In this document: positions 30,255-59,998 of the stretch, piece after piece
Numbering within the stretch: position 1 is the stretch's first letter
How the letters are laid out: each line of letters opens with the position of its first letter
Assembly: GCF_900108095.1 (NCBI RefSeq)
Contig: NZ_FNWL01000006.1
Span: 62,001 to 126,000 of the forward strand
DNA length: 64,000 nt
Reading direction: 5' to 3'
From: Natronorubrum sediminis
GTDB lineage: Archaea > Halobacteriota > Halobacteria > Halobacteriales > Natrialbaceae
The notes under the pieces: generated by a model
The model's input: the letters and a program-made list of their open reading frames with translations, nothing else
Told to the model about the DNA's origin: nothing
Database searches by the model: none
Program-made: the position numbers and the translations under genes

Positions 30255-30266
30255 CTCAACGTACAA

Positions 30267-32363
30267 ATGAATCGTTTTTCACAACTCCGTCAGCAGGCGA
30301 CAGCATACAACGTACTCAGTGGAATCACGACGGTTCTCGCGATCGTATTCACGCTGTATACTATCCACTATGCGACAACGCTCTGGACGATGCGAACCCG
30401 CTATTCGGTACTTTTTCTCGGTCTGGGGCTCGCCGTTTTCTACTTCGACGAGGCGCGTCAGTGCTTCAAGACAGAAGGGGACGAATCGGGCTACGAGAAA
30501 AAAGCCGCAGTCGCAGACGGCGGAACGACGAGTGCCGATAGCTCCGGAAGAACGCTGTCGGGCAAGAATCGAACGGCCATTGCCCGCACGAAGACGGTGT
30601 GGGCTAAGGTAGACCCATACCTGCTTATCGCATCGGGCATCGCGGCCCTTTTGACGGCCGCATACGTCGAATTTCACTTCTATCGACTGCTCCAGGACGT
30701 TCACTTGCTCGGATTCACGGACCTCGATTTATTCGTCGGTGGTGTAATCATCTACCTCGCGATAGACGCAACGCGCCGGGCGTTCGGATGGATCATCGCT
30801 CTCGTAACAATCGGTTCTATCCTCTACGCGACCAACTACGTTGGACCGAATTTACCCAGCTTCTTGCGACACTCCGGATTCGACCTCGAACGAATCTCGA
30901 GCGAAGGTGCGATTTCCCTCTCTGGCGTGTACCACGAAACGTTGATGGGAATCGGATCCACGTGGGTTGCGATCTTCATCATGTTCGCTGGAATCGCCAA
31001 AGCCTACGGGTTGATGGATTTCATCCTCGACGTCGGTCGGGAACTCGGCAAGAGCCTGACGACCGGTGTCGTACAAATCGCCGTTATCGCAAGCATGATC
31101 ATGGGATCGATCACCGGTAGTGCGGCGGCTAACACGGCGACGACGGGAAGCTTTACCATTCCGATGATGCAGGATCAGAAGGTCAGAGACGATTACGCCG
31201 CAGCGATCGAAGCCGTCGCTTCGGCGGGCGGGCAGATGCTCCCGCCGGTGATGGGCGTCGCAGCGTTTCTGATGGCGGATATCATCGGCGTGAGTTATCT
31301 CCGAGTCATTCAAGCGGGCGTGATCCCGGCGGCGCTGTTCTATCTCAGCGTGGGGATCGCTGTGCACTTCACCGTGCTCAAATTCGGATGGACATCGAAA
31401 AACACGGGTTCGTTCAATTACGGCATGTTGACCAGAGGAGCGCACTTCGCTATTCCGCTCTTCGTCCTGCTGTATCTGCTCGTCGTGATGCGGTGGACGC
31501 CGCTGACTGCCGGCCTGTACACCATTATTACGATGATTGTCGTCGGACTCCTAACCTCAGTAGTTAGTAAAGTAAGAGCGTCCGAGATCGATTCCGGCGT
31601 CGTGAAAGAAGAGTCGAAAACGATATTGCTGGGACTCCGACGCGGCGGTCTCGAGATGGCACCGCTCGTCGGCGTGCTCGCAGCGATGGGTATTATTATC
31701 GAAATGCTCACCCAAACCGGATTGGCACAGCGTGTGAGTACCGCAATCGTCGGAATGGGCGGTGGGCTCCTGCTCGTCGTACTACTACTCGCGATGGTCG
31801 CGAGCATCCTGTTCGGGCTCGGTATGCCGACGCCCGCAGCGTACATTCTGGTCGTTATCCTCGTTGCGCCTGGCGTTATGGAGATGGGGGTCCCCGAAAT
31901 CACGACCCACATGTTCGTCTTCTACTTCGCAATGTTGTCCGCGATCACGCCGCCAGTGGCGATCTCCGTCGCAGTCGGATCCCGAATCGCGAATACAGAC
32001 TTCATAACGTCCTGTATTAACGCGTTGCGCATTGGAGCTCCTGGGTTTCTCATTCCGTTCGCCCTCGTCGCCAACGAGAGTCTCATTTACTGGTCGAGTA
32101 CGACGCTTATCGAATTCCCCGTCGTCCTCGCGGGAACGATCGCTCTTATCGTGGCGACGGTTCGCTTCGACGGTGCTCGTCTCCTTTCGATTCCGTGGCG
32201 CGGTTTCTACGGCTTGCTTGCGTTTATAGCGATGTTCGGTGGACTCGCTCACATCGGCGTTCAGGTCGGCGCTGCGATCGTCATCGTCGCCGGTCTAGCC
32301 CACGCGAAGTATGTCGTCGGCTACGACACCGAGGCCCAGGTCGAAGCGACCGCAACGGACTAA
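30267..32363 (+). CDS. TRAP transporter fused permease (DctQM-type), copy 1
   Basis: The 698-residue, about 17-span protein combines the small DctQ-like N-terminal part (four spans, ending near FHFYRLLQDVHLLGFTDLDL) with a DctM-like permease. Permease signatures are GSITGSAAANTATTGSFTIPMMQDQ, GGQMLPPVMGVAAFLMADI, LGMPTPAAYILVVILVAP and YFAMLSAITPPVAISVAVGS. The fused form accompanies TAXI binding proteins in archaea. It imports the acid captured by the 29217 product using the Na+ or H+ gradient. The next gene is convergent, so the operon has two genes. Confidence 0.93.
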   Translation: MNRFSQLRQQATAYNVLSGITTVLAIVFTLYTIHYATTLWTMRTRYSVLFLGLGLAVFYFDEARQCFKTEGDESGYEKKAAVADGGTTSADSSGRTLSGKNRTAIARTKTVWAKVDPYLLIASGIAALLTAAYVEFHFYRLLQDVHLLGFTDLDLFVGGVIIYLAIDATRRAFGWIIALVTIGSILYATNYVGPNLPSFLRHSGFDLERISSEGAISLSGVYHETLMGIGSTWVAIFIMFAGIAKAYGLMDFILDVGRELGKSLTTGVVQIAVIASMIMGSITGSAAANTATTGSFTIPMMQDQKVRDDYAAAIEAVASAGGQMLPPVMGVAAFLMADIIGVSYLRVIQAGVIPAALFYLSVGIAVHFTVLKFGWTSKNTGSFNYGMLTRGAHFAIPLFVLLYLLVVMRWTPLTAGLYTIITMIVVGLLTSVVSKVRASEIDSGVVKEESKTILLGLRRGGLEMAPLVGVLAAMGIIIEMLTQTGLAQRVSTAIVGMGGGLLLVVLLLAMVASILFGLGMPTPAAYILVVILVAPGVMEMGVPEITTHMFVFYFAMLSAITPPVAISVAVGSRIANTDFITSCINALRIGAPGFLIPFALVANESLIYWSSTTLIEFPVVLAGTIALIVATVRFDGARLLSIPWRGFYGLLAFIAMFGGLAHIGVQVGAAIVIVAGLAHAKYVVGYDTEAQVEATATD

Positions 32364-33342: not shown

Positions 33343-34518
33343 CTACACGCGCTCGATGATCGTGGCGACACCCTGGCCGAACGCGATACACATCGTCGAC
33401 AGCGCTCTGTCCTGTCCCGTTCGCTCGAGTTCGTGGGCGAGTTTGGTGATGAGTGCGCTGCCGGTTGCCCCCAGCGGGTGGCCGTGTGCGATCGCCCCGC
33501 CGTTGACGTTCGTATCCTCCCAGGAGAGACCGGTTTCCTCGAGCCAGGCTGCGATAACCGAGGCGAAGGCCTCGTTCACCTCGAAGAGATCGATGTCCGA
33601 CGGCACCATATCGGCCTTCTCGAGGATCTGTTCGGTCGCAGGGATCGGTCCGGTGAGCATCAGTACGGGATCGACGCCGACGACCTCGGTCTGGACGATG
33701 CGAGCCATCGGCTCCCAACCGTACTCTCGAGCTGTCTCGCGACTCGTCACGAGGACGGCGCTCGAACCGTCGACGATGCCCGACGAATTTCCGGCGTGGA
33801 TAACGCCCTCTCCGTCGTCCCGAAACGCGGGCGGGAGGTCCGAGAGGGAGTCGACATCGGTTCCCGGTCGCGGGTGCTCGTCTTCTTCCACAACGATGGT
33901 TTCGCCGTCAAGTTCAGTTTCGACCGGAACGAGCTGGTCGTCGAACCGTCCCTCGTCGTGTGCTCGTTTCCACCGACGCTGGGATTCGACGGCAATTTCG
34001 TCGAGTTCGCGCCGGCTGAAGTCCCACTTCTCGGCGACCCGTTCTGCGCTTTCGCCCTGATGCGTTATTTCGTCGAAATGCTCGAAGTAGGTCTCGGACA
34101 TGTCGGGCTCGGCAGTCGACGCTCCGTCACTCCGGTTGCTCGACATCGGCACGCGCGTCATATGTTCGACGCCGCCCGCGACCACGACGTCGCTGAACCC
34201 GGCTCGAACGTTCGCAGCGGCGAGGTTGATCGTTTGCTGGCCCGAACCGCATAGTCGGTCGAGTTGAAACCCGGGAACCTCGTCGCCCCAGCCGGCGACC
34301 ATCGATGCAATGCGTCCGATATCCGAACCCTGCTCGAAGACTGGCTTTACACAGCCGTACATGACGTCATCGACGATCCCCGGGTCGAATCCGTTTCGTT
34401 CCTGTAGCGCCTGCAGAGGTGCCGCTGCGAGATCCTGTGGATGCGTGTCGCGAAAGGATCCGTTGTACTTTCCGAACGGCGTCCGCACTGCATCGACGAT
34501 TACAGCTTCCTTCATCAT
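33343..34518 (-). CDS. Thiolase (acetyl-CoA C-acyltransferase)
   Basis: The 391-residue protein, MMKEAVIVDAVRTPFGKYNG, has the acyl-enzyme Cys in FQLDRLCGSGQQTINLAA (about residue 90). The other catalytic residues are the His in NGGAIAHGHPLGATGS and the proton-transferring Cys in ALSTMCIAFGQG near the C-terminus. It cleaves 3-ketoacyl-CoA with CoA, the last beta-oxidation step. Thiolases with the full-length C-terminal motifs may also act in synthesis, but the context is catabolic. An in-frame TTG at 34530 is less likely than ATG 34518. Confidence 0.92.
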   Translation of the reverse strand: MMKEAVIVDAVRTPFGKYNGSFRDTHPQDLAAAPLQALQERNGFDPGIVDDVMYGCVKPVFEQGSDIGRIASMVAGWGDEVPGFQLDRLCGSGQQTINLAAANVRAGFSDVVVAGGVEHMTRVPMSSNRSDGASTAEPDMSETYFEHFDEITHQGESAERVAEKWDFSRRELDEIAVESQRRWKRAHDEGRFDDQLVPVETELDGETIVVEEDEHPRPGTDVDSLSDLPPAFRDDGEGVIHAGNSSGIVDGSSAVLVTSRETAREYGWEPMARIVQTEVVGVDPVLMLTGPIPATEQILEKADMVPSDIDLFEVNEAFASVIAAWLEETGLSWEDTNVNGGAIAHGHPLGATGSALITKLAHELERTGQDRALSTMCIAFGQGVATIIERV

Positions 34519-34598
34519 CAACTGTGTCAATGCATATCACCTTAGACATTCCGGATCGGCACATCACTCGAGTCGATTGCGTTCACGCAAACTGTCGG

Positions 34599-35384
34599 TT
34601 ACACGTCGTGGTGTTCGGTCAGCGCGATTCGTGGAACGCCTTCGACGACGATCGTCTCCCCTTGGATATACTGCGCACCGGGACTCGCGAGGAACTGGGC
34701 GACTCGAGCGATCTCGTCGGGCAGCCCAAGCTGGCGATCGACGCTGTCCGGATCGACATCGTCCGACGTCATGCTCCGTTGTTGTTCGACGCCTTCCGTG
34801 AGAACGAGTCCAGGCAAAATGGCGTTGATTCGTATTTCGTACGGTGCCCACTCGACGCCGAGCGTTCGCGTGAGCGTGTTTAATCCCGATTTTGCGGCCG
34901 CGTAGTGGGCCATCATCGGCGCTCCGTCACGGCCGGCGACGCTCGAGACGTTGACGATGGTGCCGCCGTCACCCTCGATCATGCCCTCGCTGACGATTTG
35001 AGCGCAGTTGAACGCACCGGTGAGATTGATGTCGACGATGGTGTTCCAGGCGTTCGCGCTCAACTCTTCGGTGGGAGCCTCGAAACTCGCACCGGCGTTG
35101 TTTACGAGAACGTCGATCGGCCCGAGTTCGTCCGTCGCGGCTTCGACGACAGAACAGATCGACGCGCGGTCCCGGACATCGCATTCGACAGCGAGAGCCT
35201 CCCCGGAGGCGTCGCTGTCGTTGATCGAATCCGCGACGCTATCGACTGCGTCCTGGTCTCGAGACGTGACGACGACGTCGACGCCGTCCGCGGCGAATCG
35301 TTCCGCGATCGCTCGACCGATCCCCCGGGATGAACCGGTGATGAGTGCTGTCTCACCGTCTACCGAGAAGGTCGTTGTTGACAT
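34599..35384 (-). CDS. SDR, AtuB/AtuG-like candidate
   Basis: The 261-residue protein starts MSTTTFSVDGETALITGSSRG and continues IGRAIAERFAADGVDVVVTSR. VNNAG, Ser in VNVSSVAGRDG and Y-x-x-x-K in AHYAAAKSGLNTLTRTLGVEW make a complete classical SDR active site. It is the first gene of the thiolase operon. In the Pseudomonas atu cluster two SDRs (AtuB, AtuG) occur with AtuA and the carboxylase; this gene and the one at 37838 could play those parts. That is positional inference, not sequence identity. ATG 35384 is chosen over an in-frame start at 35414. Confidence 0.85.
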   Translation of the reverse strand: MSTTTFSVDGETALITGSSRGIGRAIAERFAADGVDVVVTSRDQDAVDSVADSINDSDASGEALAVECDVRDRASICSVVEAATDELGPIDVLVNNAGASFEAPTEELSANAWNTIVDINLTGAFNCAQIVSEGMIEGDGGTIVNVSSVAGRDGAPMMAHYAAAKSGLNTLTRTLGVEWAPYEIRINAILPGLVLTEGVEQQRSMTSDDVDPDSVDRQLGLPDEIARVAQFLASPGAQYIQGETIVVEGVPRIALTEHHDV

Positions 35385-35882
35385 TCCAGTTTCGGATCCC
35401 AGCGGGTCGATCAAAAATGTATTGTCTCAATATTGACTGGTTGTAGAACCACGATGATTGCGCAGAGCTACGCCAACTCGTGCAACCCCACCGCCAGACA
35501 TTCGCGCTGATCTAATTGAACGTTCGCACAACCTAGATGGTGAAATGCGACCGGGTCGATCTACCACTGAGCGTGGAAACGTCGTCTGCAAACGCTCGCC
35601 AGTGACTCGCACTTCGGGAGCGTACAGTATCAGGAGTGTACTCGAGTTCCGTTAGTCGAGTCCTTCACGTCGGTTTGAATATACGGTTACCCTTCATTAG
35701 ATGAGTATCGAAGTGGGTATCGACCTCCCTCTGACAGTTTACCGTCGTCGCAATTATATTCAACATTCATAGAATCGTGTACTCCACTCTCCTTTTATAA
35801 CCTGAGTTCGGGAAATTGTTATTCTAAACTCATGTGGGAAATTAAGGAAGAGATTATTCGAAGCACCGCGTCATTTGGTGCT
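35385..35882. other. Divergent promoter region between SDR operon and second TAXI gene
   Basis: Without a gene. It contains a TTTTATAA box at 35793-35800 that would serve the plus-strand TAXI gene, and it must also hold the promoter of the minus-strand operon. An in-frame ATG at 35832 lies between the TATA box and the ATG used at 35883. Confidence 0.5.
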
Positions 35883-36926
35883 ATGGTGGTAAAAAAGCAC
35901 TCTCAGTCAGTGGGTAAGAGAGCGTATCGGCGGACGTTCCTCGCTTCGGTGGGACTGGGAGCATCAGCAGTACTTGCAGGGTGTACAGGCGACGATTGGA
36001 CAGACGAGGATACGATCCGAATGCTATCGTCGACAGAAGGGACAACAGCGTACGCAGCAAATGAAGGACTCACCGCCGTTGTCAACGAACACACTGACGA
36101 CGTGTTTGCTGAAGCCCAACCTAGTCCAGGCACCGAGGCAAATATCGGTTCGCTCATGGACGAAGACGCGGAGATGGTTTTCAGTCAGAATTGGGGGATG
36201 AACTTAATAATGGAAGAAGAAGAGCCGTACGACGAACTTGGCTTCGACGTCGTGCAATTCTTCCACTTCTATACCCTCCCTTGGTTTTTCGTGACCGCAA
36301 ACGAGGAGATCGAATCGATCGCTGATATCGACGAAGAGACGCAAGTTAGCCCGACCCCTGAAGGGTCCGGGACAGCTGCCCCGCTCGAGCACGCACTTTC
36401 GTTTGCGACCGACGATTTCGATCGCGTCAGCTACGACTTCGCCGAACAGGCTTCTGCAATGGAAGAGGGACGGCTCGAAGTCGGCGTTGGTTCGTACATG
36501 AATCTCGAAATCGAACCCGGGTGGCTCCAAGAAATGGGCGGAACGGTCGACTATCACATTCCAACTATCCCGGACGAGGTTCACGATGAATGGGAGAGTG
36601 ATTCTGGTATTGCCGTTGGCACGTTCCCCGGTGACGAAATCGAAACCGCTTCCGGTGCTCCAGATGAAGTTGTAACACCAATATTCGAATACAATTTCGT
36701 TGGTCGTCAGGATTTGACCTACGACATGGTTTACGCATTTCTCGAGGCGCTTCACGAAAACCGAGAGGAACTCGGGGGGTATCACGAGGTTCTCTCGAAG
36801 CTGGAAGACGAGGAGAACTTTACAAACGAATTGTACGAAGACGTGCCACTTCACGCGGCGGCGTACGACTATTGGGACGAGGAGGGTCTCCTGAACGACG
36901 ATCACGAACGCGCCGACGACCCCTAA
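35883..36926 (+). CDS. TAXI-type TRAP substrate-binding lipoprotein 2 (no adjacent permease)
   Basis: From ATG 35883 the product (347 residues) has a twin-Arg lipoprotein signal (RAYRRTFLASVGLGASAVLAGC). The TAXI motifs follow: TEGTTAYAANEGLTAVVNEH, AEMVFSQNWGMNLI, YTLPWFFVTANEEIESIAD, SPTPEGSGTAAPLEHAL and EEGRLEVGVGSYMN. It is clearly a paralog of the 29217 protein and must borrow a permease, because the next gene is an enoyl-CoA hydratase. An in-frame ATG at 35832 would give an abnormally long pre-sequence. Its presence at the head of the hydratase/SDR pair suggests a cargo that feeds those enzymes. Confidence 0.9.
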   Translation: MVVKKHSQSVGKRAYRRTFLASVGLGASAVLAGCTGDDWTDEDTIRMLSSTEGTTAYAANEGLTAVVNEHTDDVFAEAQPSPGTEANIGSLMDEDAEMVFSQNWGMNLIMEEEEPYDELGFDVVQFFHFYTLPWFFVTANEEIESIADIDEETQVSPTPEGSGTAAPLEHALSFATDDFDRVSYDFAEQASAMEEGRLEVGVGSYMNLEIEPGWLQEMGGTVDYHIPTIPDEVHDEWESDSGIAVGTFPGDEIETASGAPDEVVTPIFEYNFVGRQDLTYDMVYAFLEALHENREELGGYHEVLSKLEDEENFTNELYEDVPLHAAAYDYWDEEGLLNDDHERADDP

Positions 36927-37028
36927 TCCGCTACAGTACGCCGCGGGTTCTCGTCGGATTCCTCTCCCCCGTGATGAAATATATCTAACATAAATCTTTA
37001 GATCACATATAACAACGTCTACTGTACA

Positions 37029-37841
37029 ATGCCAACACGTAGCACCGACCTCGGAAACGAGGACCTCGAGGTAACGATGAGCGACGACGGCACCGTCGTC
37101 TGGGCGACGATCGACCGGCCCGACGTCCACAATGCGCTGAGCGAGTCCGTACTGACGGGGCTTTCCGAAATCGCTGCCGCGACACGCGAACGCGATATCC
37201 GGGTCGTCGTCATCCGTGGCGCGGACGGCACGTTCTGTTCGGGCGGCGACTTGCAAGGGATGGACGAGGCTGAACCGAAGTCGATGTTCGAACGACGGGC
37301 CGGCTCGTCGGGGTTGGCCGATCTACTCGAGGAGTTGATCGACGCCGACGCCCTCACGGTCGCCGCGGTCGAGGGGTACTGCCTGGCTGGCGGCTGTGGG
37401 CTAGCGGCCGGTTGTGACTTCGTCCTCGCGGCTGAGGACGCCGATTTCGGGACGCCTGAGGTGAACGTCGGCATGTTTCCGATGCAGGCGATGTCGGCAA
37501 TCATGCCGGCCGTCGGCGAGAAGAAAGGACTCAAGCTCATGTTCACCGGCGAACACATCGACGCCGAGACCGCCGAGCGAATCGGCCTCGTGACAGACGT
37601 GCTGGACGCCGACGCGTTCGAGGACGAACTCGAGGCGTACGTCGACAGTCTGGCCAAGAACAGTCCGGTGATGATTTCGATGGGGAAAGAAGCCTACTAT
37701 ACGCAACGCGATATGACGGTCGAACAATCATACTCGTATCTCAAGGAGATGCTCGTGCTGTTAATGGAGAGTGAAGATCACGAGGAAGGTGTCGCGGCGT
37801 TCGTCGAGGATCGCGAACCTGAGTGGGGGACACGGCCATGA
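37029..37841 (+). CDS. Enoyl-CoA hydratase/isomerase family (AtuE-like candidate)
   Basis: This 270-residue crotonase-fold protein has oxyanion-hole segments RGADGTFCSGGDLQGM and GYCLAGGCGLAAGCDFVLA, then ADFGTPEVNVGMFPMQAMS. By-eye alignment puts Gly (residue 124) at the first catalytic Glu of rat hydratase and keeps the second as Glu144. The usual two-Glu hydration mechanism is therefore modified, and an isomerase, lyase or glutaconyl-type activity is possible. The downstream SDR overlaps its stop by four bases (ATGA). The AtuE comparison comes from neighbouring genes. Confidence 0.85.
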   Translation: MPTRSTDLGNEDLEVTMSDDGTVVWATIDRPDVHNALSESVLTGLSEIAAATRERDIRVVVIRGADGTFCSGGDLQGMDEAEPKSMFERRAGSSGLADLLEELIDADALTVAAVEGYCLAGGCGLAAGCDFVLAAEDADFGTPEVNVGMFPMQAMSAIMPAVGEKKGLKLMFTGEHIDAETAERIGLVTDVLDADAFEDELEAYVDSLAKNSPVMISMGKEAYYTQRDMTVEQSYSYLKEMLVLLMESEDHEEGVAAFVEDREPEWGTRP

Positions 37842-38659
37842 GCGACGGTCGGGGAACGCCGCCGAGTACGGACATTTTCGCGTCCGATCTCCTCGAGGGA
37901 GAAACCGCGCTCGTCACCGGCGGCGGCACCGGCATCGGGAAACACATCGCGCTGGCGCTCGCCGATCACGGCGCCGACGTCGCTATCACCTCGCGCGACA
38001 TGGACCACCTCGAGCCCGTGGCTGAGCGGATTGAGGCGAAAGGGCGGCGCATCTGTGCGACGACCGCCGATATTCGAAGCCGAGACGAAGTAGACGCGAT
38101 GGTCGAAACCGTCCTGGACGAACTCGGCGAGATCACAATTCTCGTGAACAACGCCGGAGCGAACTTCCTGAGCCCCGCCGAGGAACTGAGCGAGAACGGC
38201 TGGCGGGCTGTCGTCGGAACGATCCTCGACGGCACCGCCTACTGTACCTTCGCTGTCGGCGAGCACATGATCGACAACGGCGGCGGCTCGATCGTCGCGA
38301 TGGGAGCGACGAACAGCGAGCGCGGCGCACCGTATCACGCCCACTCCGGTGCCGGAAAAGCGGGCATCACGAACCTCATGCAGACCGTCGCTGCCGAGTG
38401 GGCTCAGTACGGCATCCGCGCCAACACGATCGCACCCGGCATCATCGAGACGGAAGCACTATCGAGCGTCTGGGACGAGGCGGGCCGCGACCGCGACCAA
38501 ATCGGACGCGACATCGCCATGGAACGTCTCGGATCGCCGGCAGACTGCGTGCCGATCACGTTGTTTCTCGTCAGCGATGCCGCGGCCTACGTAACCGGCT
38601 CGTACTTCGCCGTCGACGGCGGCCAACTCGTCGCGGACGCCGGACACCATCTCGAGTAA
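37838..38659 (+). CDS. SDR of 2,4-dienoyl-CoA reductase type
   Basis: The 273-residue protein has TALVTGGGTGIGKHIALALA (residues about 23-42) and VNNAGANFLSPAEELSENGW. The active-site region is HAHSGAGKAGITNLMQTVAA, where the canonical Tyr of Y-x-x-x-K is Ser170 (S-x-x-x-K174). That substitution is characteristic of mitochondrial 2,4-dienoyl-CoA reductases. The expected reaction is NADPH-dependent reduction of a conjugated dienoyl-CoA. It is translationally coupled to the hydratase (ATGA overlap). Such an enzyme is needed for unsaturated or terpenoid acyl chains. Confidence 0.83.
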   Translation: MSDGRGTPPSTDIFASDLLEGETALVTGGGTGIGKHIALALADHGADVAITSRDMDHLEPVAERIEAKGRRICATTADIRSRDEVDAMVETVLDELGEITILVNNAGANFLSPAEELSENGWRAVVGTILDGTAYCTFAVGEHMIDNGGGSIVAMGATNSERGAPYHAHSGAGKAGITNLMQTVAAEWAQYGIRANTIAPGIIETEALSSVWDEAGRDRDQIGRDIAMERLGSPADCVPITLFLVSDAAAYVTGSYFAVDGGQLVADAGHHLE

Positions 38660-38884
38660 CTGCCCGGGCGACCGTGGATCTCTTCCGACAGCAGTTGGAT
38701 CACATACCAACTATCAATTGTTGAAATCGTTGGAATCGAGCAAATTCACTATCCTACTATTTGTCTTGAGGTGATCATAGCGGGCTCGAACGGGAGAAGT
38801 GACACGGCGACGAATACCGCTTGCGACCGCACCGTTCCATTTTGGAGACTGATTTCTTCCTGTTCGAAGCTACTGGATATCCGT

Positions 38885-40708
38885 CTAGAACAGCACCGTT
38901 CCATGATGTCGGTCGCGTTCAATACGACGCTTGTTGCGATAGGCATCGATGCGACGCTCGAGTTGGCGGCGTAAATCGCTCGCAGCGGCCAGTTCGTCGA
39001 CCTGCATGCTCGAGGCTTGTTTGCGGATGTCCTTGCGATACAGGTCTTTCGTCTCCTCGACGAAGGCCTCGCGTTCGGCCGGATCGTCGATCTCGTCTAT
39101 CTGGTCCGAAAACATCGCCCGAACCGCCGCGTCTGGCCCCATCACCGCCAGTTCCGCCGACGGCAGCGCGAGCGTCGAATCGGGTTCGAACGACGGTCCG
39201 CACATCGCGTAAATGCCCGCACCGTAGGCCTTCCGCGTGATGACGCAGAACTTCGGCACCTGTGCGTTCGAGGTCGCGTAAATGAACTTCCGGCCCTTCT
39301 GGAGGACGCCCTGTCGTTCGACCTGCGAGCCGACCATGAACCCGGGCGTATCACAGAGGTAAATCAGGGGGATCCCAAAGGCATCACACTTCCAGATGAA
39401 GTCCGAGGCCTTTTCGGCGGAATCGGGGAAAATTGCCCCGGAGACGTGATTGGGCTGATTCGCGACGATTCCGACTGGGCGACCGTCGATCCGACCGAAA
39501 GACGTGACGAGTTCGGGGGCAAATCGCGGTTTGAGTTCGAACAACGAACCCTCGTCGACGATGCGCTCGAGGACGTCGTGCACGTCGTAAGCTTCGTTCG
39601 GATTCTCAGGGATGACGGCGTCCAACCCTTCGGGATTGCGACGCGGCGCCGTTCCCGGTCGTTCGGGAAGGGGAGACTGGTAATCCTGAGGTAGATACGA
39701 AAGCAGGTCTCGAACTTTCGTCGCTGCGGTTTCCTCGTCGGGAACGACGAGGTCTGCGCTGCCGGAGTGAGTCGCGTGAACGTCGGGACCGCCCAGTTGC
39801 TGCATATCGATGTCCTCACCGGTCACCTCCTCGACGATCCGAGGCGAGGCAATCGCCATGCCGGAGATTTCCTCGACCATGATTAGGAAGTCACAGAAGA
39901 TGGGCGTGTACGCCGATCCTGCGATATTCGGACCGTAGAGGACGCCGATCTGTGGAACCTGTCCGGAGTGGATGCACTGGTTGAAAAACGACTTCCCACC
40001 AGTGTATCGGCCAGCGTGACTCGAGGACTCCTTACGGTCGCCGGGGGAAAGCCGCGCTCCCGTCGAGTCGATGAGTCGGACGATCGGCGCGCGAGCGGTC
40101 ACCGCTCGTTCGGAGAGCCGGATTGCCTTTTCGATCCCCTGCTGGCCCAGCGAACCCGCCTTAACCGTGTAATCGTTTGCCGTGAAGAACACGTCGCGGC
40201 CGTCGATCGTTCCGACGCCCGTTATCATCCCGTCTGCGGGCGTTCGGTCGTCGTTGGCGTAGCCGGCGAACGATCCGTCCTCGTACTGGACGTCGTCGAA
40301 GACCATGTCGATCCGATCCCGGACGAACTCTTTGTCCAACTGTTCGATTTTCTCGTGACCTCGCTCGGGACCGCCCGTCGCGATGTCCTCGAGGTCCGCT
40401 CGGATACGCTCTTCTCGATCGGTAAGGATGACGCCCTCGTCGGTAAACGACGCCCCGATGTCGTCGCTCCCGTCGGTCTCGAGAGTAACGGATTCGCCGA
40501 GGTGATGTGAAAGCGCCGTAACGATCGCACGAACCGTTTCTTCGTCGTACTCGCCGTCGATTTGTACTTTCATGGTCTCTCTGGTGTCGATTGGGGTGCC
40601 CGCATCATCGTCGTACAACTCGGGCCGATTCCAAAAGTGTACCGTCGGTGATCGGTTGGTGGACTCCCCAGATCGGCGTTTCGCTGCCGACGTACTCGTG
40701 TGTGCCAT
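38885..40708 (-). CDS. Acyl-CoA carboxylase carboxyltransferase (beta) subunit, AtuC/MccB/PccB family
   Basis: The 607-residue protein has the two crotonase-like halves of biotin-dependent carboxyltransferases. The N-half contains SLGQQGIEKAIRLSERAV, RLIDSTGARLSPGD, CIHSGQVPQIGVLYGPNIAG. The C-half contains FELKPRFAPELVTSFGRIDG, GFMVGSQVERQGVLQKGRKF, RKAYGAGIYAMCGPSF and LPSAELAVMGPDAAVRAMF. It transfers CO2 from carboxybiotin to an acyl-CoA; geranyl-, methylcrotonyl- and propionyl-CoA are all possible. No biotin carboxylase or BCCP subunit is in the window. ATG 40708 abuts the TGA of the upstream ligase; ATG 40573 (MKVQIDGEYDEE) is an alternative giving a more family-like N-terminus. Confidence 0.88.
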   Translation of the reverse strand: MAHTSTSAAKRRSGESTNRSPTVHFWNRPELYDDDAGTPIDTRETMKVQIDGEYDEETVRAIVTALSHHLGESVTLETDGSDDIGASFTDEGVILTDREERIRADLEDIATGGPERGHEKIEQLDKEFVRDRIDMVFDDVQYEDGSFAGYANDDRTPADGMITGVGTIDGRDVFFTANDYTVKAGSLGQQGIEKAIRLSERAVTARAPIVRLIDSTGARLSPGDRKESSSHAGRYTGGKSFFNQCIHSGQVPQIGVLYGPNIAGSAYTPIFCDFLIMVEEISGMAIASPRIVEEVTGEDIDMQQLGGPDVHATHSGSADLVVPDEETAATKVRDLLSYLPQDYQSPLPERPGTAPRRNPEGLDAVIPENPNEAYDVHDVLERIVDEGSLFELKPRFAPELVTSFGRIDGRPVGIVANQPNHVSGAIFPDSAEKASDFIWKCDAFGIPLIYLCDTPGFMVGSQVERQGVLQKGRKFIYATSNAQVPKFCVITRKAYGAGIYAMCGPSFEPDSTLALPSAELAVMGPDAAVRAMFSDQIDEIDDPAEREAFVEETKDLYRKDIRKQASSMQVDELAAASDLRRQLERRIDAYRNKRRIERDRHHGTVLF

Positions 40709-42304
40709 TCAACGGTAGTAGTCTTCGTGATTCTCGGAGACGACGTGTTTTTGTACTTTGCTGGTCGCCGTCTGGGGCAACTCTGCGAGAAACTCGACGG
40801 CTTTCGGGGTCTCGAAACCGGCGAGAGTTCCGCGGGCGTACTCGAGGACGTCGTCCGGATCGGGGTCGTCCCCGTATGAGACGGCGAAGGCGGTCACCGC
40901 TTCGCCCCATCGCTCGTGAGGGATGCCGACGACGGCGACTTCGTCCACGTCGGAATGATCGAGCAGCACCGATTCCACTTTCTGCGTCGAGACGTTCTCG
41001 CCGCCGGTCTTGACCATGTCCGTCTTGCGGTCGACGAACTTCAGCAGGCCGTCCTCATCGAAGTAACCCACGTCGCCGGAGTGAAACCAGCCGTGGGCGA
41101 ACGCCTCCCTAGTTCGTTCTTCGTTCTCGAGGTAGCCGTCCATGACGTTTGGCCCGCGGTAGACGATTTCACCGACCTCGCCATCGGAGAGCAACTGACC
41201 GTCGTCATCCATGATCGCGATATCCGTATTCGGCAGTGCTGTTCCCCAGTAGTTTCCCTCCTTCTCGAGTTGCCACTCGGGGTGGTAGGTACAGGTCGGC
41301 GGGTAGGCTTCGGTTTGACCGGAACCGAGGCTGAACTCGGCGCCGAAGACCTCGATGCACTCCGCAAGCGTCTCGTTTCCGATCGGCGTCATCGCGTACG
41401 TACACCGCCTGAGCGAGGAGAGGTCGCGATCCCTGATATCGTCTCTGGCCAGCAGTTCCGTGTACATCGACGGCAAGAGCGTTACGTCGGTCACGGCGTA
41501 GGTTTCGACGCACTCGAGGAACTGGTTCGGTTCGAAGCCCCGGAGAATCACCATCCGCGCGGAGACGTGCAATACGGCCTTGACCTGCGAGAGCATCGCG
41601 CAGTGAAACATCGGCAAGAGTCCGCACTTGACGTCGTTTCGGGATACCTCGCCCCCGACGACGTTGTTGATCGACCCGGCGTGCAACGCTCGGTGAGGGA
41701 GGCAGACTCCCTTTGGTCGTGACGTCGTCCCCGAAGTAAACATGATCTGGGCGAGATCCGAGCCCTCGAGTTCCACCTCGGGTTCCGCGGCGTCGTGCTC
41801 GCTCGCAAACGCACGGAACTCCGGCACCGGAACCGTCCCCTCGTCGCTCCACTCGATCACAGCGAGCGTTTCGAGGTCCCGCTCCTCGAACACGCCCTCG
41901 AATTTCGGATAGTACGTGTCCTCGACGACCAGCGCGTCGACTGACGCGTGGTCGAGTTCGTAGCCGACGTCGTCGGTCGTGATCTCGGGATTGATCGGAA
42001 CGACGACGAGCCCCGCTTTGAGCGCGCCGAAGTACGCTTCCAGAAATTCGAGGGAGTTCGCGGCGACGATCGCGAGCCTGTCTCGCGACGCCAGTCCCGA
42101 CTCGAGGAACGCGTTCGCCGCGCGATTAACGCGGTCGTCGAACTCCCCAAACGACACTCGTTCGTCGGTCGCCGGAACCACGAACGCGTCCTTGTCGGGT
42201 CGTCGATTACCGGCACGCCGAACGATATCACCAGCCGTCACGCGCGTTATTCGAGGGTCGCGCAACTCACCACCTGTGGTGTGTGTTATCGATTGATCTG
42301 TCAT
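40709..42304 (-). CDS. AMP-forming acyl-CoA ligase (AtuH/LiuE-like role)
   Basis: This 531-residue adenylate-forming ligase has the P-loop IMFTSGTTSRPKGVCLPHRAL, the A5 region FSLGSGQTEAYPPTCTYHPE, the A7 motif WFHSGDVGYFDEDGLLKFVDR, the hinge KTDMVKTGGENVSTQKVE and the C-terminal lysine region LPQTATSKVQKHVVSEN. It activates a carboxylic acid to acyl-CoA with ATP. It is directly followed by the carboxylase subunit without a gap, so the two probably act in one route: activation, dehydrogenation by the divergent ACAD at 42479, then carboxylation. Confidence 0.92.
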   Translation of the reverse strand: MTDQSITHTTGGELRDPRITRVTAGDIVRRAGNRRPDKDAFVVPATDERVSFGEFDDRVNRAANAFLESGLASRDRLAIVAANSLEFLEAYFGALKAGLVVVPINPEITTDDVGYELDHASVDALVVEDTYYPKFEGVFEERDLETLAVIEWSDEGTVPVPEFRAFASEHDAAEPEVELEGSDLAQIMFTSGTTSRPKGVCLPHRALHAGSINNVVGGEVSRNDVKCGLLPMFHCAMLSQVKAVLHVSARMVILRGFEPNQFLECVETYAVTDVTLLPSMYTELLARDDIRDRDLSSLRRCTYAMTPIGNETLAECIEVFGAEFSLGSGQTEAYPPTCTYHPEWQLEKEGNYWGTALPNTDIAIMDDDGQLLSDGEVGEIVYRGPNVMDGYLENEERTREAFAHGWFHSGDVGYFDEDGLLKFVDRKTDMVKTGGENVSTQKVESVLLDHSDVDEVAVVGIPHERWGEAVTAFAVSYGDDPDPDDVLEYARGTLAGFETPKAVEFLAELPQTATSKVQKHVVSENHEDYYR

Positions 42305-42478
42305 AGATTGACGACCGTATACAGAATCAAAATTCTGTCGGTCAGTGTGACACTATGAGGAGGAGTTCGTCGACGCGTCGATGACCTACTCAGGGTGCCT
42401 GTCGGACGAGCACTGCTCCTGTGCGGACGGAAAACAGCGGTAGCTATATTAGCGCAAGTCTATATGTCACTGCTGTCC

Positions 42479-43609
42479 ATGGTAGACTTTACGCTTAGCG
42501 AACAACAGCGCGCCGTTCGGGAGACGGCGCGGGCGTTCGCCGAGACCGAAATCGCTCCTGTGGCCCGCGAGGCCGAGGAGACCGGGACCTGGCCTCGAGA
42601 TGTCTGGGAGCATGCGGTCGAGGCGGGACTCGTCGGCGTCGAGATCCCGGAGGCTTACGGCGGACCGGGGATGGGCGTCCTCGAGAGCGCGCTCGTCGCC
42701 GAGGAGTTCGCCCGCGTCGACGCCGGTATCAAGGCGGCCCTGGGTACGGCCTTCGGCACCCGGATGATCGCCGAGTACGGTTCGGAGGAACAAAAGGAAT
42801 GGATCTTGACTGGCGTCGCGACCGGCGAACTCATCACGGCGATGGCGAACACGGAACCCGATCATGGCAGCGACGCCAGTAGCATCGAAACCAGCGCACA
42901 CAAGGACGGCGACGAGTACGTCATTGACGGCACCAAAACTTTCGTCACGCACGGCACGATCGCCGACGTTATCCTGACGCTGTGCCGAACAGGCGAAGAG
43001 GGTGCCGGCGGCATCTCGGCTCTCCTCATCGAAACCGATCGCGACGGCGTGGTCGTCGACTCCGAGATCGAGAAGATGGGGTGGAACGCCTGCGAGACGG
43101 CCCAGTTGCGGTTCGACGGTGTTCGAGTCCCCGAAGAGAACCTCGTCGGAGCGGAAAACCGCGGCTTTTACCAGCTTATGGAGTTCTTCGAAGCCGAGCG
43201 GGTCGGTATCGCCGCCTCCTCGCTGGGAATCGCGCAAGGTTGTTTGGAGCACGCCCTCGAGTACGCCTCCGATCGCTCGCAGTTCGGCCAGCCGATAGCG
43301 GAGTTTCAGGCGATCCGCCACAAACTCGCCGAGATGGCGGTCAAGGTCGAGAACGCACGCCGGCTCACCCTCGATGCCGGTGCCCGACTCGATGACGGGG
43401 AGAAACCGACGAAACTCGCGAGCATGGCGAAACTCTACGCCAGCGAAGTTGCCGAAGAAGTCGCCAGCGATGCCATCCAGATCCACGGCGGCAACGGGTA
43501 CACCCGTGATTACCCCGTCGAACGCCAGTACCGTCACGCAAAAATCTACCAGATCGGCGAGGGAACGAGCGAAATCCAGAAGAACATCATCGCGGGGGAG
43601 TTACTGTGA
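42479..43609 (+). CDS. Acyl-CoA dehydrogenase (AtuD/IVD-like), ACAD 1
   Basis: From ATG 42479 the 376-residue flavoprotein starts [27 protein letters not shown]/substrate motifs are [20 protein letters not shown] and [12 protein letters not shown]. The end is [36 protein letters not shown], where the Glu of EGTSE is the usual catalytic base. A second Glu lies at the isovaleryl-CoA dehydrogenase position ([10 protein letters not shown]). It forms a 2,3-double bond in an acyl-CoA; electrons go to ETF. The stop overlaps the AtuA-like gene (GTGA). The upstream frame from 42395 is not family-like. Confidence 0.93.
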
Positions 43610-44943
43610 GCGTTCGAATCGCCAACGCGGCCGGCTTCTGGGGAGACGACAACGAGGCACCGCGTCGCGTCCTCGAGCACGCTGAGGACCTCGACTACCT
43701 GACGATGGACTACTTGGCGGAGGTGACGATGACGGTTCTCGTCCGCCAGCAGGAGAACGATCCCGAGAAGGGGTACGCGACCGACTTTCCGTCGGTCGTA
43801 GACGACATCTTGACCGAGGCGATGGACCGCGGTGTGACGATCTTGGCCAACGCCGGCGGGGTAAATCCGCAGGCGTGTCGCGAAGCCGTCGCGTCGGTCG
43901 CCGACGAACGGGGCCTCGAGCCGACGATCGCGACGGTCTCCGGCGACGACTTTCGCGACCGGATCGAGGAGTTCGACGACGAACGCCTTCGCCACGCCGA
44001 CACCGGCGAGGCGCTTCCCACGGATCCGGACGTCGTCTCGGCGAACGCCTACTTTGGCGGTTTTCCCGTCGCCGAGGCATTGGCGGCGGACCCCGACGTA
44101 GTGATCACCGGCCGAGTGATCGACGCTGCGTTGATTCTGGGGCCGCTTATCCACGAACACGGCTGGGACCGCGACGAGTACGACCGACTCGCTCGAGGCC
44201 TGATCGCCGGTCACATCATCGAGTGCGGCGCCCAGGCGACGGGGGGCAACTTCCTAGGCGACTGGCGGGGCATCGACTTCGAGCATATCGGCTTTCCAAT
44301 CGCGGAGGTCGAGGCGGAGGGCTCTACCGTCATCACGAAGCCGTCGGGCACCGGCGGGCTGGTGACGCCCGACACCGTCGGCGAGCAGCTGCTGTACGAG
44401 GTCGCGGATCCGGGTGCCTACTACGGTCCGGACGTCGTAGCGGATTTTCAGCACGTCCGCTTAGAGCAGGTGGGCGAGGAACGGGTCGCGGTGGAAAACG
44501 TCACGGGCACCGCACCGACGGATACCTACAAAGCGAGCCTCCACTACCGCGACGGCTTTACCGTCCGAAGCGACGTCGTCTACGCGAACCCGAACGCGGC
44601 GGCAAAGGCGAACCGGGCTTTCGAGTACATCCGAAACCGGGCGGACGAACGCGGTATCGAGTACGACCGGTTCCGAACCGAGTCCTTCGGGGTCGACGCA
44701 CTCCACGACGGCACGGCATCCGGCGAGCCCGAAGAGGTGGTCGCCAGAATCGCCATCGAAACGCCGAACAAGGGAGACGGCTACGAGTTTGCCAGCCTGT
44801 TCGCGAATCTAGGCCTCGGCGGGCCGCCCAGCGTGACGATGTTCAATCCAGGTCGATCCTCACCGACCCCGAAGTTCGCCTACCACCCCGTGCTCGTTCC
44901 GAAGTCTGCATTCGAGCCGATCGTCGAGGTGACCGGCGCATGA
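43606..44943 (+). CDS. AtuA-type (DUF1446) protein, large part
   Basis: The 445-residue protein, GTG start overlapping the ACAD stop, begins [20 protein letters not shown]. The AtuA family motifs follow: [63 protein letters not shown] and [23 protein letters not shown]. AtuA is required for growth of Pseudomonas on citronellol and related acyclic terpenes and is thought to act on carboxylated CoA intermediates; its exact reaction is unproven. In many bacteria a C-terminal domain of about 110 residues is fused. Here it is a separate gene overlapping by ATGA. Confidence 0.9.
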
Positions 44944-45278
44944 GACTCTACGACGTCGCACACGGCCGTTCGGGCGACAAAGGAAACAAGGCCAACGTTG
45001 GCATCATCGCCACCGACGGCGACGACTATCCATTCCTCCGTGATCTACTGACGGAGACCTATGTCGCCCGAGTTTTCGATGAATTTCTCGAGGAACCGGG
45101 CGCCGAGAGCGTCGACCGATACGTCCTCCCCGAGATGAAGGGGTTGAACTTCGTCCTCCACGGCGCGTTAGACGGTGGCGCGAGCGAATCACTCCGGACC
45201 GACCGCCAGGGCAAGACACTCGCGGCGATGCTTCTCCGTCAGGAGGTCGGTGACGAGTACGAGCAGTACCAGAAGTAA
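44940..45278 (+). CDS. AtuA-like C-terminal domain as separate small protein
   Basis: The 112-residue protein begins [20 protein letters not shown], with the GDKGN signature, and continues ATDGDDYPFLRDLLTETYV, RYVLPEMKGLNFVLHGALD and GGASESLRTDRQGKTLAAML. This corresponds to the ferredoxin-fold domain that follows DUF1446 in single-chain AtuA proteins. Its start overlaps the large gene's stop by four bases (ATGA), as expected for subunits made in equal amounts. A much longer frame from 43875 covers the same end but reads antisense-like Arg/Gly-rich sequence before this ATG and is not real. Confidence 0.85.
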   Translation: MRLYDVAHGRSGDKGNKANVGIIATDGDDYPFLRDLLTETYVARVFDEFLEEPGAESVDRYVLPEMKGLNFVLHGALDGGASESLRTDRQGKTLAAMLLRQEVGDEYEQYQK

Positions 45279-45311
45279 TCAATCTCCGGTGCTGTCCCCT
45301 GTTCGGAGCAG

Positions 45312-46499
45312 TCAGTACGATCGCGGCAGTCCGAGCACCCGTTCGCCGATGTAGTTGCGCATCATCTGACTCGAGCCAGGGGCGATCCGCCCCAGTCGCG
45401 AGGCCTTCCAGAGGTCGACGACGAAGTAATCGGGGCTGAGACCGTTACCGCCGTGGGTCTGGACGGCGACGTCACAGGCCTCGTAGCAGGCTTCTGTCGC
45501 GCGGAGCTTCGCCATGTTCGCCGCCGCGCCGGCTTCGCCGCCGTTGTCGACCGTCCAGGCGCCTTTCCTAACGAGTAGTTCCGCCGCCTCGAGTTTCGAC
45601 CACGCGTCGGCGATGGGGTGTTGGACCGCCTGATGAGAGCCGATCGGCGCGTCGAACACTTCCCGTGAGTTGGCGTACTCAATCGCCCGGTTGAGGGCGC
45701 ACTTGCCCGCGCCGACGGCGTTCGCTGCGCCGACGAGCCGCTCCGGGTTGACGGTCTCAAACAGCTGGTAGAGGCCGTTATCTTGCTCTCCGATGACGGC
45801 GTCCTCGTCGAGGTGGTAGTTGTCAAAGTGGATTTCGTACTGTGTTTCGGGCGCCGGAATGCCGGTCTCGAGGGGGTGATACTCGACGGCGTCGTCGCTC
45901 GGATCGGCGAGAAAGAGCGTGATGCCGTCGGTGCGGCGCTCGACCTCGGACTCAGGTTTCGTCCGGGCGACGAGAAGCATCTTATCTGCCCGATCAACCC
46001 CGGAAATCCACTGCTTCGTGCCGTTAACGACAAATCCATCGTCGGTCGGTTCGGCAAACGTATCCAGGTTCAACGTGTTGTGACCCGCCCTGGGTTCAGT
46101 GAGAGCCATACAGAACTTCATCTCGCCGTTCGCCAGTTTCGGGAGATAGCGCTCTTTCTGTTCCTCGGTTCCGTTTTGCGAGAGCGTGATCGAACCGAAC
46201 ACCGGGGTAACGACCCAAAGCATGCCGGTCCCCATACAGCCGTTTTCGGCAAACGTCTGGACGATCGTCGTCACTTCCTGGATACCCATTCCTTCTCCGC
46301 CGTACTCCTCGGGAACGGCGGCGCCGAGGAAGCCGGCATCAGCACAGTCCTGCCAGAACTCCGTCGGTTCAACCTGCTCGTGGTTGACAGCCTGCCAGTA
46401 CTCGTCGTCGTACAAGTCGGCGATGTCACGCGCTGTTTCTCGGATGAGTTCGGACGCTGGACCGTCTTCGAACGCGCTCGATTGATCGCTGCTGGACAT
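45312..46499 (-). CDS. Acyl-CoA dehydrogenase family protein, ACAD 2
   Basis: From ATG 46499 the 395-residue protein starts MSSSDQSSAFEDGPASELIR. It has MALTEPRAGHNTLNLDTFAE, VVNGTKQWISGVDRADKM and an end HGGNGLSPDYFVVDLWKAS then RIAPGSSQMMRNYIGERVLG. By eye, the catalytic Glu of the EGTSE loop is replaced (APGSS). A Glu in VNPERLVGAANAV sits where isovaleryl-CoA and long-chain dehydrogenases keep theirs. The conserved ending IGERVLGLPRSY resembles the 51953 protein. It converges on the AtuA operon and is divergent from the CoA-transferase at 46764. Confidence 0.9.
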   Translation of the reverse strand: MSSSDQSSAFEDGPASELIRETARDIADLYDDEYWQAVNHEQVEPTEFWQDCADAGFLGAAVPEEYGGEGMGIQEVTTIVQTFAENGCMGTGMLWVVTPVFGSITLSQNGTEEQKERYLPKLANGEMKFCMALTEPRAGHNTLNLDTFAEPTDDGFVVNGTKQWISGVDRADKMLLVARTKPESEVERRTDGITLFLADPSDDAVEYHPLETGIPAPETQYEIHFDNYHLDEDAVIGEQDNGLYQLFETVNPERLVGAANAVGAGKCALNRAIEYANSREVFDAPIGSHQAVQHPIADAWSKLEAAELLVRKGAWTVDNGGEAGAAANMAKLRATEACYEACDVAVQTHGGNGLSPDYFVVDLWKASRLGRIAPGSSQMMRNYIGERVLGLPRSY

Positions 46500-46583
46500 G
46501 AGCGCGGATTCTACGTGGGGAAAGTAAACATTGTGCATACGAGAGAAGGTAACACGGACGACGACCGAGAGAGGCTAACTGCG

Positions 46584-48446: not shown

Positions 48447-49508
48447 ATGACACACAGGGTGCTAGGACGAAGATCGTATTTAGCGGCGGCTGGAGTGGGT
48501 GTAGTCGGTCTGGCTGGTTGCATCGGTGAAGATGACCCCGACGAACTGGACGAACTGGAGAACGGACCAGAGGGCGACGAAGAGGAACTCATCTGGACGA
48601 CGACGTCCGAGGGCAGCGCTACGACGGTCTCGCTTCAGGGCCTCGCACCCACTGTCAACGACGCCACCGATGACCTATACATGGAGGTCCGACCGTCAGA
48701 AGGAACGGGAGCGAACATGGGTCGACTGGACCGTGACGAGGCGCAGGTAGCGTACACGCAGAATTTCGATGCGGCTCGGGTTACACAAGGAGATGAGCCG
48801 TTCGACGACCTCGGATTCGAACTCAACGAGGTGTGCCACTGGCTAACCACGCCATGGCTTTTCATTACACCAGACGAGGATCTACAATCGATCGAAGATA
48901 TCGACTCCGACACGCGCGTGGCTCCGACACAGACAGGTGCCGGGACCAGAGACAATCTCGAGTTGGCACTCGACTACGTTGTTGACGACTACGATGACGT
49001 CAGCGTCGACTTTACCGAGCAAACAGGACCCTTCCAGGAGGGAGCACTTGACGTCGGCGTTGTTCCAATCGTGAATTTCGAACTAGAGGGTGCGTACGCT
49101 GAGGAGCAAAAGAGCGTGGTCGATCTTCACATCATGGAATGGCCGGAGGACGCTCTCGACGAGATGGAGGACGACCCAATGATCGAAATCATGGAGATCG
49201 ATGCGGGTGACTTAGACGGCTACGCGTCATACCCGGACGACCAACCAATGCGGAGTCCGGGGAACTCGTACAATTTCGTCACTCGCAACGACGTCGACTA
49301 CGACACCCTATACGACGCACTGTCGGCAATGTGGGACGCTCGCGACGACTTCGGCGGAATCCACGACCAACTGGTCTATCACGAGGATCCCGAACACTGG
49401 GTCGATTGGACGTTCCCGGATGTCCCGTTCCACCCGGCTGCTGCGGACTTCCTCGAGGATGAACTCGGCGTCTGGGACCAAGCCGAAGGCGGCCGCGCGG
49501 ACGAGTAG
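48447..49508 (+). CDS. TAXI-type TRAP substrate-binding lipoprotein 3
   Basis: The 353-residue protein starts MTHRVLGRRSYLAAAGVGVVGLAGC, a twin-Arg and lipobox signal. The mature part has TSEGSATTVSLQGLAPTVND, AQVAYTQNFDAARVTQGD, LTTPWLFITPDEDLQSIEDI, APTQTGAGTRDNLELAL and FQEGALDVGVVPIVN. It is more diverged from copies 1 and 2 than they are from each other (for example no AAYDYW ending). It is the first gene of a two-gene transport operon with the permease at 49539 and is expected outside the membrane. Confidence 0.9.
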   Translation: MTHRVLGRRSYLAAAGVGVVGLAGCIGEDDPDELDELENGPEGDEEELIWTTTSEGSATTVSLQGLAPTVNDATDDLYMEVRPSEGTGANMGRLDRDEAQVAYTQNFDAARVTQGDEPFDDLGFELNEVCHWLTTPWLFITPDEDLQSIEDIDSDTRVAPTQTGAGTRDNLELALDYVVDDYDDVSVDFTEQTGPFQEGALDVGVVPIVNFELEGAYAEEQKSVVDLHIMEWPEDALDEMEDDPMIEIMEIDAGDLDGYASYPDDQPMRSPGNSYNFVTRNDVDYDTLYDALSAMWDARDDFGGIHDQLVYHEDPEHWVDWTFPDVPFHPAAADFLEDELGVWDQAEGGRADE

Positions 49509-49538
49509 TAGACCCACTCCGCGACACTACCAGCACAC

Positions 49539-53158: not shown

Positions 53159-53160
53159 TC

Positions 53161-59534: not shown

Positions 59535-59998
59535 CCGGTGACGATACGTCTCGCGATCGGATCGAGGTCTGTCCGGCCGCGGAGCTCCCCCCGGGTTCGC
59601 GCACCATCGTCGAGGTGTCGGATCAAGAGGTCGGTATTTTCAACGTCGACGGCGAACTGTACGCGATCGCGAACGCCTGTCCCCACCAGCTGGCGCCGCT
59701 CTGTGAAGGACGGTTGACCGGTGAGATGACCGCCCCTGCGGTGGGGGAGTACGAACTCTCCCGGCAGGGGATGGTCCTACGTTGTCCGTGGCACGGCTGG
59801 AAGTTCGACATCGAGACGGGCGAGTCCGTGTTCAATCCTCACCTCCGGACACGAACGTACGACGTAACTATCGAAACGCTCGAGGAGGGGGACTGTTCGA
59901 AGGACTGCACCTACGGGGCGGACCTCGCCGGCGACGAACCGCCGGTCGACACCTACGACGTCGCCGTCGAACGGTCGACCGTGGTTCTCTACGTCTGA
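59531..59998 (+). CDS. Rieske [2Fe-2S] ferredoxin-type protein
   Basis: The 155-residue protein carries both cluster-binding motifs, NACPHQLAPLCEG (C-x-H) and LRCPWHGWKFDIETG (C-x2-H), in a single Rieske fold; residues 30-110 are the core. No ring-hydroxylase catalytic domain (D-x2-H-x3-H) follows, so it is an electron carrier or a small subunit, not an oxygenase. Translation is coupled to the amidohydrolase (ATGA), suggesting that the two proteins work together or share regulation. The C-terminal extra 40 residues contain two Cys (DCSKDCTYG), unusual for simple Rieske ferredoxins. Confidence 0.9.
   Translation: MTGDDTSRDRIEVCPAAELPPGSRTIVEVSDQEVGIFNVDGELYAIANACPHQLAPLCEGRLTGEMTAPAVGEYELSRQGMVLRCPWHGWKFDIETGESVFNPHLRTRTYDVTIETLEEGDCSKDCTYGADLAGDEPPVDTYDVAVERSTVVLYV

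Follow-up and report, generated by a model that had tools for sequence, protein, structure and literature searches.

Which acid could be degraded, and by which chemistry, where a haloarchaeon encodes a biotin-dependent carboxyltransferase (CT) next to AtuA, an acyl-CoA ligase, acyl-CoA dehydrogenases and a hydratase? The question is raised by a stretch of 64,000 nucleotides from Natronorubrum sediminis (contig NZ_FNWL01000006.1, positions 62,001 to 126,000), hereafter the window, whose own numbering is used below. A preliminary description had placed an Atu-like cluster at 34599-45278 and proposed that it carboxylates a branched unsaturated acyl-CoA, possibly from isoprenoids such as archaeal lipids. 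Our analysis points, with a confidence just short of even, to a set of haloarchaeal genes for the breakdown of a carboxylic acid with a beta branch (3-methyl or larger), following a logic like that of the Atu and Liu pathways. Gene content, synteny, selection, the CT lineage, a glycine at the CT pocket gate, a segment fused to the CT and the single biotin carboxylase of the genome were established by sequence; from these we infer every reaction, the order of the steps and the partnership with that biotin carboxylase.

A block of eight genes under purifying selection

All the genes named in the preliminary description were confirmed by Pfam and NCBIfam profile searches (Table 1). The contig that bears them has 159,712 bases and belongs to a haloarchaeal genome of 3.78 Mb (99% complete); the presence of ParA at 18210 suggests that it is a plasmid. 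In Salinadaptatus halalkaliphilus we found the genes for the hydratase (enoyl-CoA hydratase family, ECH), a short-chain dehydrogenase/reductase (SDR), the CT, the ligase, a first acyl-CoA dehydrogenase (ACADa), AtuA, an AtuA-ferredoxin-like protein (AtuAfd) and a second acyl-CoA dehydrogenase (ACADb) in identical order, with protein identities of 82-94% (91% for the CT). The ratio of nonsynonymous to synonymous substitution rates (dN/dS) between the two blocks ranged from 0.07 to 0.17 for all eight genes, indicating that they are functional and not due to chance. The left neighbour of the Salinadaptatus block is a protein of the TRAP-TAXI (tripartite ATP-independent periplasmic) transporter type, and neither the thiolase nor the SDR at 34599 of the window lies beside it; both were therefore ruled out as members, and the conserved unit, of eight purifying-selected genes, is 37029-46538. 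The extent first given thus holds real genes but gains ACADb and loses the SDR at 34599. The thiolase next door could still take a 3-oxoacyl-CoA product.

Lineage and acyl pocket of the carboxyltransferase

The CT was placed in a tree of 29 rows that held no row for geranyl-CoA carboxylase (GCC), which enters the comparison through bit scores and its published gate residue. The 3-methylcrotonyl-CoA carboxylase (MCC) type, the propionyl-CoA carboxylase (PCC)/transcarboxylase/acetyl-CoA carboxylase (ACC) type and a haloarchaeal group each formed a supported clade. The window CT fell outside the PCC/ACC clade, in the haloarchaeal group, together with CT2, a haloarchaeal paralogue to which it is about 50% identical; the placement of one long-branch row, CTb of Natrinema, is unsure. 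On this evidence the window CT can be classed neither simply as a PCC nor simply as a GCC; it belongs to a haloarchaeal lineage of its own, with a PccX-like segment fused at the N-terminus.

MCC and PCC are told apart by 15 alignment columns; the window CT agrees with MCC at 7 of these and with PCC at 4, the former including the active-site motifs 'AG' and 'GFMVG...YGAG'. The fit of the bulky geranyl-CoA is reported to be decided by one position, Phe191 in MCC and Gly162 in GCC (PMC4673880). In the mapping to human numbering made in this analysis, F191 of human MCC-beta is the F of 'DRDHFGR', and G237 of the window CT aligns with it, placing a Gly at the pocket gate as in GCC. The same Gly occurs in all window-type CTs of the lineage and in the CTs linked to AtuA in Roseibium and Rhodococcus; elsewhere the gate is Phe (leucine MccBs), Ile (CT2) or Tyr/Phe (PCCs). 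The column of the PCC selectivity Asp (D422/D427), whose role is described in PMC7835884, holds Gln in the window CT, although Asp is not universal among the PCC-clade references either. As a separate observation, a marine alphaproteobacterial plasmid (L092:14989-20383) encodes AtuA, a biotin carboxylase, a separate biotin carboxyl carrier protein (BCCP) and a CT of the MCC lineage with a GCC-like Gly gate.

A single biotin carboxylase and the PccX-like segment

The absence of a biotin carboxylase from the cluster, noted in the preliminary description, held: none is encoded there. The genome carries three CTs and one biotin carboxylase, the chromosomal PccA, near PccB and PccX. A profile of CT N-terminal segments matched PccX at E = 5e-4 among 1,624 open reading frames (ORFs), with the runner-up at 0.8. 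In an actinobacterial acyl-CoA carboxylase, the holoenzyme assembles with the help of a small E subunit that attaches to the CT subunit (PMC7835884), and by analogy with that subunit the fused PccX-like segment may dock the shared PccA. Consistent with such docking, five genomes carrying this CT (G182, G370, G064, G156 and G157) have a single biotin carboxylase each, and the X-fused CT2 directly adjoins a biotin carboxylase in G166, G150, G058 and G168. CT2 (L006:9361-11175 and orthologues) is itself a second CT to which a PccX-like segment is fused, and nearly all Halobacteria have it. The literature searched yielded nothing on AtuA in archaea or on PccX in haloarchaea.

Related loci and the hydratase

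Comparison of 14 CT loci, picked from the best matches, revealed ECH at 11, ACADb at 9, and SDR and ligase at many; orthologues of the SDR at 37823-38659 (67-74%) adjoin the same CT type in other haloarchaea. AtuA was present in G304 only, on a separate short contig. The other conserved neighbours of the AtuA-less loci look like lysine-biosynthesis genes (DapF, LysA, DapE and DapB types, judged by reading the sequences only) and were set aside as chromosomal context, not part of the module. An independent cluster on a Natrinema halophilum plasmid encodes a related CT and AtuA (57% and 61%), a biotin carboxylase of its own, another CT, acyl-CoA dehydrogenases, a PRK08139-type ECH and ligases, and, farther on, branched-chain ketoacid dehydrogenase genes; this gene content favours a branched-chain substrate.

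The modification of the hydratase, also part of the preliminary description, was borne out: the first crotonase catalytic Glu is replaced by Gly and the second is retained (FGTPE), a pattern shared by 14 of 14 related haloarchaeal ECHs. Among NCBIfam models the protein scored 198.6 bits with PRK08139 and 118.9 with the gamma-carboxygeranoyl-CoA hydratase (AtuE type), for which the cut-off is 426.

AtuA accompanies HMG-CoA reductase in other haloarchaea

AtuA was found in 15 of the 391 Halobacteria sampled. In nine haloarchaeal loci, from seven of those 15 genomes and from plasmids of Salinigranum and Halalkalicoccus, it follows a degradative 3-hydroxy-3-methylglutaryl-CoA (HMG-CoA) reductase, and these operons comprise the reductase, AtuA, AtuAfd, a 156-aa protein without a Pfam family and a sodium:solute symporter. 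The one reductase scored reached 431 bits with TIGR00532, and those of the remaining loci are 71-86% identical to it. In the AtuA tree, which took in eight of the nine, the reductase-linked AtuAs and the carboxylase-linked clade (window, Salinadaptatus and Natrinema) are sisters (94/92). HMG-CoA lyase above the cut-off was missing in six of the seven tested genomes with such an operon, and in the Natronorubrum genome the best match reached 66 bits against a cut-off of 246.

The AtuA of Pseudomonas has been assigned as a lyase acting on a 3-hydroxy-3-substituted acyl-CoA with a free carboxylate (PMC4847356), and PMC12016498 cites, as unpublished data, that the split lyase pair ThnQ/ThnS is expressed and active. 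Together with the HMG-CoA reductase operons, these roles suggest, as the natural reading, that AtuA is a 3-hydroxy-3-alkylglutaryl-CoA lyase that would split 3-hydroxy-3-R-glutaryl-CoA into a 3-oxoacyl-CoA and acetate. The shared operons suggest HMG-CoA as its substrate where AtuA accompanies the reductase, and these nine are candidate mevalonate-catabolism operons. A PDB sequence search with AtuA returned only spurious AlphaRep matches, and an AlphaFold model made from two sequences (predicted local distance difference test score, pLDDT, 33.5) was not used.

Proposed pathway and alternatives

In the pathway that we propose, the ligase would convert the branched acid to its CoA ester and an acyl-CoA dehydrogenase would oxidise this to the 2-enoyl-CoA. 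The CT, charged by the single housekeeping biotin carboxylase-BCCP protein PccA recruited through the PccX-like segment, would then add CO2 at the gamma carbon. Hydration would yield a 3-hydroxy-3-substituted-glutaryl-CoA, from which the two-part AtuA lyase would release acetate to leave a 3-oxoacyl-CoA, and thiolysis by the thiolase would complete the route. This proposal is supported by the matching eight-gene block in Salinadaptatus and its dN/dS, the gate Gly and the MCC-like active-site motifs, as well as by the Natrinema cluster, CT2 beside biotin carboxylases, the HMG-CoA reductase-AtuA operons and the lack of HMG-CoA lyase. It is also favoured by the fact that a carboxylase and a hydratase are what makes a tertiary 3-hydroxyacyl-CoA with a free carboxylate, the substrate described for the AtuA family.

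Several observations weigh against it. A free, dedicated alpha subunit, whose presence in the genome the preliminary description had made a test of its proposal, was not found there, the sole biotin carboxylase being PccA. Clustering within the propionyl/acetyl-CoA carboxylases, the other outcome named there as refuting, was not seen, but in the 29-row tree without GCC the window CT lies outside the gamma-carboxylating MCC-type clade just as it lies outside the PCC/ACC clade. The hydratase lacks one catalytic Glu and is not of the AtuE type. About 36 of the 38 sampled haloarchaea with this CT have no AtuA, and HMG-CoA lyase is missing in 11 of 12 tested CT-positive, AtuA-free genomes; most of the CT clade must therefore finish the pathway with another enzyme, or the ancestral module has another role. 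As a speculation, the one-Glu ECH could conceivably act as a hydratase-lyase and do the cleavage itself. Because most CT-carrying genomes lack both AtuA and HMG-CoA lyase, our confidence in the proposed pathway stays near one half.

That distribution, in which most genomes keep the CT-ECH-SDR-ACAD-ligase set but have neither AtuA nor HMG-CoA lyase, would fit a beta-oxidation of odd or methyl-branched chains by the ligase, acyl-CoA dehydrogenases, ECH and SDR, the CT alpha-carboxylating the resulting propionyl-CoA or another short acyl-CoA and AtuA being a later addition in a few strains. PCC beta subunits are also the top-scoring solved homologues of the CT (340 bits, against 226 for GCC and 226-237 for GCC/MCC as a whole), and the CT bears a PccX-like assembly segment. 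We nevertheless consider alpha-carboxylation unlikely, as a complete PccA-PccB-PccX set already exists in the genome and the CT lies outside the PCC clade, with Gln for the selectivity Asp and with MCC/GCC-like gate and active-site motifs. Leucine or isovalerate degradation is a further and, in our judgement, improbable alternative, in which the CT would be a haloarchaeal MCC yielding HMG-CoA, and AtuA would replace HMG-CoA lyase to give acetoacetyl-CoA and acetate. Such a C5 route would agree with the sister clade of AtuAs in the reductase operons, with the genomes lacking HMG-CoA lyase, with the ketoacid dehydrogenase genes of Natrinema and with a Glu in the 'ERLV' motif of ACADb, as in isovaleryl-CoA dehydrogenase. 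However, the window block has an acid-CoA ligase and not a ketoacid dehydrogenase, its gate Gly makes for a roomy pocket where true MCC has Phe, and among solved structures isovaleryl-CoA dehydrogenase is not the closest to ACADb. That the CT needs no biotin carboxylase, or runs in reverse and acts as decarboxylase or transcarboxylase, with AtuA serving an unrelated substrate, is very improbable: among NCBIfam models it scores highest with methylmalonyl-CoA decarboxylase alpha (383 bits, well short of the cut-off of 999) and no alpha subunit lies nearby, but it carries a fused PccX-like segment, its X-fused paralogues adjoin biotin carboxylases and no membrane decarboxylase partner is found among the block genes.

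For the proposed gamma-carboxylating module, the Atu-like chemistry is plausible overall, with the reservation that the set of functions first drawn up included an SDR and a thiolase lying outside the block and a hydratase nearer to PRK08139. A terpenoid or archaeal-lipid substrate is unsupported: nothing found points there particularly, and the context speaks at least equally well for substrates of the HMG-CoA or leucine type.

Gene models and other features of the window

The CT probably starts at ATG ~40573, giving 562 aa, since its orthologues align only from about residue 44 (the first 45 codons being less conserved) and the Salinadaptatus CT lacks a Met where that upstream start would be. 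Likewise, ACADa probably starts at ATG 42464 (coding sequence 42464-43609) and the dienoyl-CoA-reductase-like SDR at ATG 37838, overlapping the hydratase stop. A 467-aa frame from 43875 was dropped in favour of the AtuAfd coding sequence. ACADb lacks the usual C-terminal catalytic Glu, having APGSS there.

Table 1. Features of the window and of the HMG-CoA reductase-AtuA loci
Feature	Position	Strand	Remarks
Thiolase	33343-34530	-	Profile match; outside the block common with Salinadaptatus
SDR	34599-35414	-	Profile match; outside the block common with Salinadaptatus
ECH family (PRK08139-like)	37029-37841	+	Profile match; syntenic, 90% in Salinadaptatus
SDR, 2,4-dienoyl-CoA-reductase-like	37823-38659	+	Profile match
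Biotin-dependent CT (beta subunit), N-terminal PccX-like segment	38885-40708	-	Carboxyl_trans, 424 bits
AMP-forming acyl-CoA ligase	40709-42304	-	Profile match; upstream of CT, co-oriented
ACADa	42395-43609 (ORF)	+	Profile match; C-terminal Glu retained (IGEGTSE)
AtuA (DUF1446), large part of proposed 3-hydroxy-3-substituted-acyl-CoA lyase	43606-44943	+	PF07287, 468 bits
AtuA-ferredoxin-like domain protein, small part of the putative split lyase	44940-45278	+	AtuA_ferredoxin, 113 bits; 112 aa
ACADb	45312-46538	-	Member of the conserved module
HMG-CoA reductase-AtuA loci	L031, L034-L039, L087, L088 (e.g. L087:10733-15634)

TRAP-TAXI substrate-binding proteins and fused DctM permeases are interspersed among the acyl-CoA genes (29217-32363, 35832-36926 and 48447-51635) and probably serve organic-acid uptake for these routes. 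Three APH (aminoglycoside phosphotransferase)-type kinases (25629-26699, minus strand; 57191-58252, plus; 60143-61219, minus) are set among acyl-CoA dehydrogenases (51953-54318), ligase and CaiB genes, an arrangement reminiscent of ACAD10/11-type 4-hydroxy-acid catabolism. At 58455-59998 an amidohydrolase-2 protein is followed by a Rieske ferredoxin-like protein, and a similar pair occurs near the divergent AtuA of G304 (L032:15649-17147).

Comparison with known systems and implications

As in the Pseudomonas Atu pathway, AtuA, CT, hydratase, acyl-CoA dehydrogenase, ligase and SDR are encoded in one cluster, and the CT shares the gate Gly of the geranyl-CoA carboxylase AtuC/AtuF. In contrast, the haloarchaeal CT comes from a different lineage and has a PccX-like segment fused to it, the cluster encodes no alpha subunit, the hydratase is not AtuE-like, AtuA is split into two genes and the gene order differs. 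Both domains of the AtuA-type lyases (AtuA, ThnQ/ThnS) are present in the window. The two-part ThnQ/ThnS lyase of anaerobic naphthalene degraders also lies beside acyl-CoA dehydrogenase, hydratase and thiolase genes and is expected to use a tertiary 3-hydroxyacyl-CoA, but the thn substrate is a cyclohexyl derivative and the portion of the thn gene table available to us lists no carboxyltransferase. The order of chemistry, dehydrogenase, carboxylase, hydratase and lyase, is that of the Liu pathway (MCC and HMG-CoA lyase), whereas the Natronorubrum genome has no HMG-CoA lyase and the CT neither belongs to the MCC clade nor carries Phe at the gate. With haloarchaeal PccA/PccB/PccX the CT shares the PccX-like segment and, probably, the partner PccA; it differs in the fusion of that segment, its position outside the PCC clade and the Gln.

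A wider joint reading, which we offer only tentatively and regard as rather doubtful, is that a third haloarchaeal CT lineage, with its assembly subunit fused and PccA shared, gamma-carboxylates bulky beta-branched enoyl-CoAs, and that the AtuAs are non-canonical HMG-CoA-type lyases yielding a 3-oxoacyl-CoA and acetate, here after carboxylation and elsewhere in the consumption of mevalonate, in operons with a sodium symporter and a degradative HMG-CoA reductase. The nine HMG-CoA reductase-AtuA operons give a testable handle on AtuA (DUF1446), HMG-CoA being commercially available. If the proposed pathway is true, the strategy of carboxylating, hydrating and cleaving beta-branched acids would extend to Archaea, and would do so with a carboxylase belonging to neither of the two described acyl-CoA carboxylase lineages.

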